Part shown: piece after piece, positions 20,582-21,434 of the stretch
How the letters are laid out: the number at the start of each line of letters is the position of its first letter
Position numbering within the stretch: the first letter of the stretch is position 1
Assembly: GCF_014200575.1 (NCBI RefSeq)
Contig: NZ_JACHBZ010000005.1
Location: forward strand, 1-64,000
Source of the DNA: Mucilaginibacter saanensis
Lineage (GTDB): Bacteria; Bacteroidota; Bacteroidia; Sphingobacteriales; Sphingobacteriaceae
DNA: 64,000 bases
Direction of reading: 5' to 3'
Position numbers and translations under genes: made by a program
Notes under the pieces: generated by a model
The model's input: only the letters and a program-made list of their open reading frames with translations
Database searches by the model: none
Told to the model about the DNA's origin: nothing

Positions 20582-20614
20582 ATTTATAATTGGTTTAGGA
20601 TTGGTGAAAGGGTA

Positions 20615-20638
20615 AAGACTGGCGGAAACGCTGGTCTT
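20615..20638 (+). other. GNRA-capped leader hairpin upstream of the tRNA
   Basis: A 10-bp stem (20615-20624/20629-20638), including two tandem G-U pairs, is closed by a GAAA tetraloop. It lies 10 nt before the tRNA 5' end in the transcript from site 3. It may be part of the larger structured RNA or a processing signal. Confidence 0.65.
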
Positions 20639-20648
20639 ACTTTGGTTT

Positions 20649-20721
20649 TGTGGGATGGAGCAGTTGGTAGCTCGTCGGGCTCATAACCCGAAGGTCGTCA
20701 GTTCAAATCTGACTCCCGCAA
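20649..20721 (+). tRNA. tRNA-Met(CAT), initiator-like
   Basis: Full cloverleaf. The acceptor 20649-20655 (TGTGGGA) pairs with 20714-20720 (TCCCGCA) with one U-G pair. D stem GAGC/GCTC, anticodon stem TCGGG/CCCGA with loop CTCATAA (anticodon CAT 20682-20684), T arm GTCAG-TTCAAAT-CTGAC, discriminator A20721, no encoded CCA. The GGG:CCC anticodon stem and A11:U24 pair are hallmarks of initiator tRNA. However, position 1 is U pairing A72, where bacterial initiators usually have a C1-A72 mismatch. Confidence 0.95.
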
Positions 20722-20722
20722 C

Positions 20723-20857
20723 ATGATTACCAGGCTCAATCAAAAAGATCTAAAGCAAGGGGATTGTTTCTTATCCGGTTTAATTCCGGTGATCTTCCAT
20801 CTACGCCCGGGTAAGGAATTTAAGAAGGTTAAAGCCAGGTTAAACGGACTGGCATAA
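20723..20857 (+). CDS. Possible 44-residue ORF directly after the tRNA
   Basis: MITRLNQKDLKQGDCFLSG...KKVKARLNGLA. It starts 2 nt after the tRNA and has no unusual codons. The same DNA can form RNA stems (GCCAG/CTGGC at 20834-20853; TAAAGGCC/GGCCTTTA at 20855-20887), so it may instead be the 5' part of the structured RNA. Low confidence as a protein gene. Confidence 0.3.
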   Translation: MITRLNQKDLKQGDCFLSGLIPVIFHLRPGKEFKKVKARLNGLA

Positions 20858-21434
20858 AGGCCATGCGATACACCATCCGGGCCTTTACTTGACATAACAA
20901 CCGCTTAGGGCAATCCTTGTAAGTCGGTTGAAAGATAACCACCGAAAGCTACGTGAGGTGAATAAATAACAATCGTGGAAAGGCTTTAAAGTTGCATAAG
21001 CCATATTCCCGTGACTAACTATTCGGGATAAAAATATTCTTTATTCGGCGGCCAACTGGTTTGGTTTGAGTAAATGGGATTACCGAGCCGTAGGACGTCC
21101 CCGCCAAATGAGTACGGTGAAATAGTGTGGCAAAACCATTGTCCAGCAAACTCAGAAAATAGTGACATCCGGGAAAGACCGGTAAACGGGGCCACGATAG
21201 GCGTACAGGATGCGGTTCGAATCCGATAGGCTCCACTTAACACTGTGAGGTTTTTGCTCATTAACCGTGTGCATCCCGCTTGATGCAATGAGAACTGCCA
21301 TAAAGCACATACCGAGTTCCTCACAGTTGGTAGTTTATACTTGGTAGTGATAAAAGCGCGAGCAAGGTAATACATGACAGCGCCATGGTAGGAATAGCAA
21401 CAACAAATCAGCTGGGTAATACCGGCTTTTGTTG
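20858..21434 (+). ncRNA. Candidate large structured phage RNA (GOLLD/ROOL-like in style)
   Basis: About 580 nt without a credible gene, dense in local stems: 20898-20930 (10 bp, one bulge), 20982-21002 (GGCTT/AAGCC), 21004-21030 (TCCCG/CGGGA), 21047-21105 (GGCGG/CCGCC), 21169-21182 (CCGG/CCGG), 21188-21234 (GGGGCC/GGCTCC enclosing a T-loop-like GGTTCGAATCC), 21243-21326 (CTGTGAGG/CCTCACAG) enclosing CTCATT/AATGAG and GCATC/GATGC, and a 13-bp end hairpin. Known large ornate RNAs (GOLLD, ROOL) are prophage-borne and often sit beside tRNAs. Membership is not shown. Confidence 0.6.
21401..21434 (+). terminator. Strong terminal hairpin of the structured RNA
   Basis: CAACAAA/TTTGTTG (7 bp) continues, after a 2-nt bulge, into AGCTGG/CCGGCT (6 bp) with loop GTAATA. 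The 3' arm includes TTTTG. It marks a plausible 3' end of the tRNA/RNA transcript and lies 51 nt before the end of the opposing gene. Confidence 0.65.

Follow-up and report, generated by a model that had tools for sequence, protein, structure and literature searches.

The window analysed here, a stretch of 64,000 nt, holds a Mucilaginibacter prophage, which between its portal and head genes carries a structured non-coding region made of several separable units (from the leader at ~20587 to ~21436). This array runs from a promoter to a terminator-like end and holds about eight short cassettes. Here it is proposed, with about even confidence, that the array is a phage-controlled transcription unit whose products are an initiator tRNA and a series of individual structured RNAs, compact and acting in trans.

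The prophage genes were assigned by PHROGs (Table 1), and these together with ARAGORN and Rfam bear out the statement, made in a sequence-only reading of this DNA, that the region is prophage-borne and attached to an initiator tRNA. Initiator tRNAs are marked by an anticodon stem with three G:C pairs; the tRNA-Met (20649-20722) has these three pairs as well as the CAT anticodon, and its GGG/CCC anticodon stem is the same as in the initiator-type tRNA-Met genes of the host. The ~716 nt downstream of it have no conserved frame, in keeping with the gene-free stretch of the same reading, and the longest stop-free run on their plus strand is 51 codons. On the minus strand, an ORF of 200 aa (21019-21621) overlaps cassette P; this region has stops in all minus frames in three of the five P copies and is open in the window and in L118. 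Several relatives have a small gene (MRRNFTKG..., with 109 aa in L007) directly after the array, and this gene is truncated in the window (21450-21500). Also 3' of the array, L143 (L036, L044) and L079 (L035) have a minigene-like ORF of three codons (Met-Lys-Arg-stop) with a GGAGG box upstream.

Table 1. Features of the window and of related arrays (coordinates of L118-L142 are in portal-plus orientation)
Feature	Position	Strand	Basis or remark
Large terminase	13787-15235		PHROGs
Portal	18255-19730		PHROGs
Palindromic operator-like site, -33 region	20541-20556	.	TATCAATATATTGATT, overlaps promoter
Promoter, Bacteroidota-type	20551-20581	+	from sequence: TTG 20551-20553, TATATTTG 20574-20581
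Leader hairpin, terminator-like, possible attenuator	20609-20643	+	z = -4.22, 0/200 shuffles
Initiator-type tRNA-Met (CAT)	20649-20722	+	ARAGORN; Rfam 67.1 bits
Cassette A, conserved non-coding stretch	20724-20855	+	recurs in G031, L046
Cassette T, hairpin with variable stem	20856-20886	+	fixed 17-nt loop ATGCRMTACRCCAKYCG; covariation
Hairpin ACCGCTTAGGGCAATCCTTGTAAGTCGGT	20898-20930	+	z = -3.36
Cassette S	20940-21026	+	recurrence; fold unremarkable, z = -0.89
Cassette U, ~108 nt, probably pseudoknotted	21060-21167	+	3 rows; MFE z = -0.35
Hairpin NNNNG-GAAAGA-CNNNN	21169-21182	+	fixed GAAAGA loop; covariation; 5' of tRNA-like element
Degenerate tRNA-Ala-like element GGGGCC..GGCTCC-A, G3:U70	21188-21238	+	9.1-bit tmRNA-model match
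Cassette P, ~163-nt compact 3' RNA, probably pseudoknotted	21243-21405	+	5 distinct sequences
3' end element, terminator-like hairpin AGCTGG-GTAATA-CCGGCT-TTTGTTGG	21410-21436	+	z = -2.52
Major head protein	26140-27219		PHROGs
Tape measure	30986-34936		PHROGs
Integrase	43561-44778		PHROGs
Leucine-type tRNA-like genes, anticodon arm and variable loop replaced	L129 1759-1889; L131 2059-2169; L083 9717-9915; L125 2274-2405; L133 1786-1927

The consensus promoter noted earlier is present, and from the consensus we take it to be of the Bacteroidota type. Among the 23 arrays tested, 19 have a TAnnTTYG box upstream, and 22 do if two added looser forms are included; these are raw counts, uncorrected for background. 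The palindrome overlapping the promoter has further palindromic copies in the window at 4714-4729 and 11750-11765, both at promoters and followed by a TAnnTTT box; the former precedes genes for a PIF1-like and a second helicase and the latter a VRR-NUC-like gene (an assignment scoring below the Pfam cut-off) and the terminase genes. With up to three mismatches, nine matches to TATCAATATATTGATT were found against 2.2 expected, none of 100 shuffles having as many, and six of the nine are three palindromes counted on both strands. The arrays of other phages have palindromes of different sequence at the same promoter place, with a mean arm of 5.3 against 1.1 in resampled sequence (21 arrays, four of them without any palindrome and several with arms no longer than chance). 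Further copies within the DNA of one and the same phage are exact in L036, L072, L076 and L116 and have one to two mismatches in L066, L039/L074, L113, L083 and L070, again as a raw tally. The promoter palindrome looks like a phage-specific regulator site, for which a repressor or an activator would both fit, and expression of the array would therefore be expected to go with the phage programme.

Relatives carry leader hairpins analogous to that of the window, with different stems. The end hairpin, placed at 21401-21434 in the first reading, was found as a stem-loop at 21410-21427 followed by TTTGTTGG, and the same 3' end element is present in L137, L142, L143 and L079. The terminator-like leader and the usual site near the portal gene would suit a cis-acting leader or DNA-level element (for antitermination, packaging or recombination) rather than trans-acting RNAs; however, the terminator-like end, the shortening in the window of the gene that follows in relatives, and the long, varied and individually covarying units make such an element highly improbable.

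What exceeds chance in the region is covariation, not folding energy. The folding energy of the whole region is unremarkable (z = -1.08, with four of 20 shuffles folding equally well) and was dropped as evidence of structure. Compensatory base changes were found in four cassettes of the window (P, the GAAAGA hairpin, T and U), by which the region is structured, as first described, and has the homologues with compensatory changes that had been named as a check. Cassette T, aligned in five rows, has 35 of 35 cells paired and six of seven pairs changed on both sides (covariation 1.029 vs. 0.290 shuffled). The GAAAGA hairpin was aligned in 16 rows taken from 14 loci, and its covariation is 0.913 vs. 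0.238 shuffled and 0.173 in the best slid version; two of 17 sites, whose stems duplicate another row, were left out of this alignment, and L076, with one mismatched pair, was added. The sites of this hairpin with at least three flanking pairs number 17 on the array strand against one on the other strand (380 kb), and in nine of the 17 a tRNA or tRNA-like element begins 15-18 nt further on, the other eight lying elsewhere. In cassette U (three sequences), the helix TGAGT/ACTCA becomes CATAC/GTATG in L076, with five of five pairs changed on both sides, and overall this applies to seven of 15 pairs, a test that favours these helices since they were taken from the same alignment by a compensatory-stem search.

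In cassette P, 96.1% of 205 cells are paired and both sides changed in six of 41 pairs (shuffled mean, 1.8; slid versions, 0 to 2), with 27 of the 41 pairs invariant. Its covariation is 0.183 vs. 0.096 shuffled, with none of 500 shuffles as high, a control that kinship among the five sequences may inflate; the further pair types stand out less clearly, being equalled or exceeded in 42 of 500 shuffles. Four of the six two-sided pairs belong to the best helix (columns 73-81 with 106-114). The crossing helices are weaker: helix 1, formed by the CTGTGAGG/CCTCACAG arms already picked out by eye in the sequence-only reading, contains a broken pair and lacks compensatory changes, helix 2 has two one-sided changes only, and in helix 4 a single pair is changed on both sides. 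Two covarying helices, 73-81/106-114 and 124-127/148-151, are retained by RNAalifold, which pairs the regions of helices 4 and 2 differently. Because of the few changes in the crossing helices and this alternative pairing, the modelled pseudoknots of P are likely, not proven.

Sequence relatives of the region were found in three other Mucilaginibacter genomes among 149 genomes searched and in six viral contigs, one of which belongs to the phage of the window itself, and after removal of same-phage duplicates five distinct copies of P remain. Strains with relatives include M. lappiensis ATCC BAA-1855 and M. endophyticus RS1. The covariance model of P has strong matches in four of the 149 genomes of the genus, one more weak match at E = 0.033, in G031, and three with E above 0.3; among 301 family genomes, strong matches were found only in two of those same four, and beyond the genus the matches are weak (best E = 8.6e-4). 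A scan of genomic contigs gave seven stretches (two Mucilaginibacter, four Rhizobium and one Afifella), of which the Rhizobium and Afifella ones were judged to be chance, a tRNA scan there having found none. BLAST of the window array against annotated phages and plasmids returned only its own tRNA or short chance-like pieces; with the array of L131 it returned only tRNA-Glu and with that of L083 nothing. No earlier description of these arrays was found in the literature searched, which lacks most subscription papers.

The portal profile has matches in 25 of 399 family genomes and in 14 viral loci. Besides the window, arrays are present in 13 of the 25 portal-match stretches (L118-L142), and none was found by gap, tRNA, tRNA-like and hairpin scans in the other 12 (L120-L124, L126, L127, L135, L138-L141), one of which, L120, has a degenerate tRNA-Met-like stretch. 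L143, chosen for its known array, is the 14th, and eleven more are in viral loci (L070, L074, L076, L078-L083, L113, L116), giving 26 arrays including the window, as judged by inspection. Same or near-same phages were counted once (L007/L137; L005/L036/L044/L073/L143; L034/L006/L075/L142; L038/L046/L072/L118; L039/L074; L035/L079; L037/L071/window; L076/L117). Of the 25 other loci, 22 have the array on the downstream side of the portal (~1.8 kb away in L136), the DNA fetched for L070 and L113 contains no portal, and in L116 (array 1850-2810; portal 5813-7174, reverse-complement orientation) it lies ~3 kb upstream, so the array can change place. The 1.3 kb remaining after the portal of L077 have no array, and the sequence of L084 has only the start of the portal. 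In a class sample of 395 genomes, the portal occurs in three outside the family, none with an array in the 3.5 kb scanned. The distant annotated portal relatives comprise 28 records (~27% identity among the matches listed). No tRNA, tRNA-like element or paired GAAAGA hairpin was found in 3.2-3.5 kb of three of these records, from Porphyromonas, Bacteroides and Riemerella phages, or of the three loci of other Bacteroidia families.

The blocks of the window recur separately in these loci, which points to an array of cassettes and not to one giant RNA. Cassette A matches G031 with 85% identity over 210 nt, continuing through T and the next hairpin. The ACCGCTTAGGGCAATCCTTGTAAGTCGGT hairpin recurs in L118, L137, L142, L143 and L074, and cassette S, in different neighbourhoods, in L137, L074 and L079. 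L143 carries tRNA-Met, A, T, tRNA-Ala(TGC), P and the end element. T, U, S and P occur in L074 together with tRNA-Gln, -Ala and -Trp; S and the end element occur in L079; and U accompanies tRNA-Arg and -Pro in L076. L137 combines T, S, the GGGCAATCC hairpin and two GAAAGA-type hairpins with tRNA-Met and the end element, and the P model finds no P in L007/L137. In L142, a tmRNA and a small ORF precede a GGGCAATCC-type hairpin and another ORF lies between this hairpin and P. By their sequences, the cassettes recombine between phages: their order differs, and tRNAs, tmRNA or small ORFs may separate them. Some arrays (e.g., L078, L081, L128) share cassettes with other arrays and, as far as recognised by sequence, none with the window.

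The tmRNA of L142 (4813-5142; same phage in L006, L034 and L075) is phage-encoded, with the tag VRQIEAKVVSMAKSRVGSSVSLAA, inside a Mucilaginibacter prophage array. Small ORFs without an assigned function stand amid the RNA cassettes of L006 ((-) ~2085-1728) and L007 ((-) ~2345-2124), as if cassettes could also be protein-coding. A further conserved cassette, GGACTGGACGAGTACATTTAGAAACG...GGGTGCCAATAGTCCGCACC, lies near the array end in L076, L080, L082, L083, L113, L116 and L119, where GGACT/AGTCC could pair within the GGTGC/GCACC loop.

Among all 4227 Rfam families, only tRNA reaches the cut-off in the region (cmscan), which accords with the earlier suggestion that, if of no known class, it might be a new one. 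A permissive cmscan of 20500-21500 (E <=10) gave a tRNA antisense match, a leader model (E = 5.6) and the 9.1-bit tmRNA match, all far below their cut-offs. GOLLD (RF02032) has no match in 20500-21500 at E <=10 nor in 16 relative loci (nine searched at the gathering cut-off, seven at E <=1), and its model finds none of 148 Bacteroidota genomes, but also none of 14 controls. The ROOL profile is included in Rfam, according to PMC12286853, and gave no match in four whole-library cmscan runs.

The whole transcript could alternatively be one ornate molecule of the GOLLD/ROOL kind, perhaps a multimeric cage, with tRNAs in a linker, and the parallel anatomy of GOLLD (tRNA-Met upstream, variable 5' part, conserved 3' part and a tRNA between, as given in PMC12286853) speaks for it. 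The sequence-only reading had likewise put the region forward as a candidate large ornate RNA; a single such RNA is not supported by the relatives, in which the cassettes are separate, reordered and interrupted by tRNAs, tmRNA and ORFs. With no Rfam match to such a model up to E = 10, and with cassettes alone, reordered or missing (L007/L137 without P; the L142 ORF between hairpin and P), a giant RNA is improbable; the modular occurrence appears to count against a single ~800-nt RNA that assembles into a multimeric cage.

As part of the array, the tRNA-Ala-like element of the window (21188-21238) stands at a position held by a real tRNA-Ala(TGC) in L143 and L074, and may be decayed. It is not a tRNA by ARAGORN or Rfam, its T stem has only 3 bp (MFE z = -0.57) and it falls short of a cloverleaf; nor is it a tmRNA (RF00023), scoring 9.1 bits vs. 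the 47-bit cut-off and having no tag frame. A scan for a 7-pair acceptor with a T arm, covering at most 3 kb after the portal or array start in each of 38 loci (112,974 nt), found 32 elements on the plus strand, 15 being ARAGORN tRNAs and 17 rejected by ARAGORN, vs. two on the minus strand, with a background of 0.25 on average in 20 first-order Markov resamplings. The 17 include near-identical ones (L128/L130/L132; L129 and L131). Four of them (L129 1958 and 2118, L131 2059 and 2315) pass the Rfam tRNA cut-off, so the elements are tRNA-derived and not unrelated to tRNA.

A leucine-type D arm (GGCGGAA) is present in six of the 17, all six keeping A73. According to PMC9976931, leucine identity in E. 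coli depends on A73 and on D/T-loop contacts and not on the anticodon. The spacing between D arm and T arm is 61 to 149 nt in five of the six and 19 nt in L129 2118; in L125 and L133 the D loop is enlarged as well, and L129 1759-1889 has a 54-nt insert on an anticodon-like stem, a close copy of which is on a different stem in L125. The bacterial alanine determinants are given, in the same source, as A73, G2-C71, G3.U70, G4-C69 and also G20 (PMC9976931). With G20 outside the comparison, A73, G2:C71, G3:U70 and G4:C69 are kept in the 51-nt elements of L128, L130 and L132 and in the 47-nt element of the window, which fails, however, the acceptor/T-arm scan. The remaining eight of the 17 fit neither pattern, three having G or T at position 73.

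These features predict that the leucine-type and alanine-type elements would be charged. A tentative extension, on the unlikely side, is that tRNA bodies are reused as carriers, which would retain the acceptor and T arms and in many cases a leucine-type D arm, with the anticodon arm deleted or exchanged for structured inserts and leucyl- or alanyl-synthetase still charging the non-decoding RNAs. These, with the pseudoknotted cassettes of the window, would make up an RNA takeover system whose targets are synthetases, EF-Tu or the ribosome. Within the window, such chimeras are represented only by the weak alanine-type element, which is probably decayed. If charged, the anticodon-less chimeras of related arrays would be a natural case, in addition to tmRNA, in which aminoacylation is uncoupled from decoding. 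Decay of the whole array, as a tRNA island and recombination hotspot of functionless tRNA remnants, would accommodate the degenerate element of the window, the tRNA-Met-like stretch of L120 and the array-strand tRNA-like elements as remnants; however, it is given very little probability, against the compensatory changes in four cassettes and the seven standard acceptor pairs that all 17 elements rejected by ARAGORN have (the scan required these pairs, and nearly all elements passing it are on the array strand).

The observed anatomy and covariation of the array are best read as an RNA toolkit that would be expressed under phage control, cut from a tRNA-punctuated precursor and aimed at translation. 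In the lytic cycle, a phage regulator would turn the promoter on; the precursor would be cut at its tRNA and tRNA-like borders by RNase P and RNase Z, and perhaps at the small hairpins, releasing trans-acting RNAs. The pieces (the initiator tRNA, tmRNA, charged tRNA-like RNAs and possible ribosome or synthetase binders) would then act on the translation apparatus, sustaining phage translation while the host shuts down or defends itself. The company of the cassettes points to translation as the target: initiator and other tRNAs, tmRNA, alanine- and leucine-type acceptors and an RlmN/Cfr-like gene. This radical SAM gene (L039 568-1503 (-)) lies downstream of the array and scores 104.7 of 290 bits for RlmN, well below the cut-offs.

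The main alternative, judged rather unlikely, is that of anti-defence RNAs, which would act as decoys for, or inhibit, nucleases or RNA-guided systems of the host, and in which cassettes would be swapped because each is aimed at a different defence. The mosaicism with phage-specific cargo, the tRNA-bodied elements without anticodon arms and the palindrome common to other phage promoters would all agree with it; however, no defence partner was identified, and the comparison with known inhibitor RNAs is that of Rfam only. The window adds at least four covarying elements that match nothing in Rfam 15 and presents them as exchangeable cassettes in one array, by which the old question of the role of extra RNAs in phage tRNA clusters becomes directly testable in Mucilaginibacter lysogens. 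The arrays are also a ready natural set of tRNA-scaffolded RNAs.

Similarly to the present arrays, GOLLD RNAs have one described member downstream of a Met-tRNA, a conserved 3' and a variable 5' part and sometimes a linker tRNA, according to PMC12286853. The likeness (prophage-borne, tRNA-adjacent, with a conserved 3' and a less conserved 5' part) holds on comparing the window with L143, L142, L118 and L074, and L137 has the tRNA and 5' cassettes with no P; in contrast, GOLLD is one RNA, whereas the window has separable cassettes and no model match. Of the GOLLD/ROOL-like assignment made at first, the GOLLD-like context thus stands, and membership does not, with no model match to E = 10. ROOL RNAs are phage-borne, often near tRNA islands, pseudoknotted and of unknown function according to the same source (PMC12286853). 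On that description, the array shares with them the phage, the nearby tRNA and pseudoknots, which in the window are only probable, and differs by the lack of a model match. As for tmRNA, the array of L142 contains a phage one, and the tRNA-like element of the window has a G3:U70, A73 acceptor, the acceptor of tmRNA, but differs by its score below the cut-off and the lack of a tag frame. The T4 stable RNAs C and D are small RNAs of unknown function from a phage tRNA precursor; likened by description alone, they are also small RNAs in a phage tRNA cluster, whereas arrays of the window type have many more cassettes, exchanged between phages.
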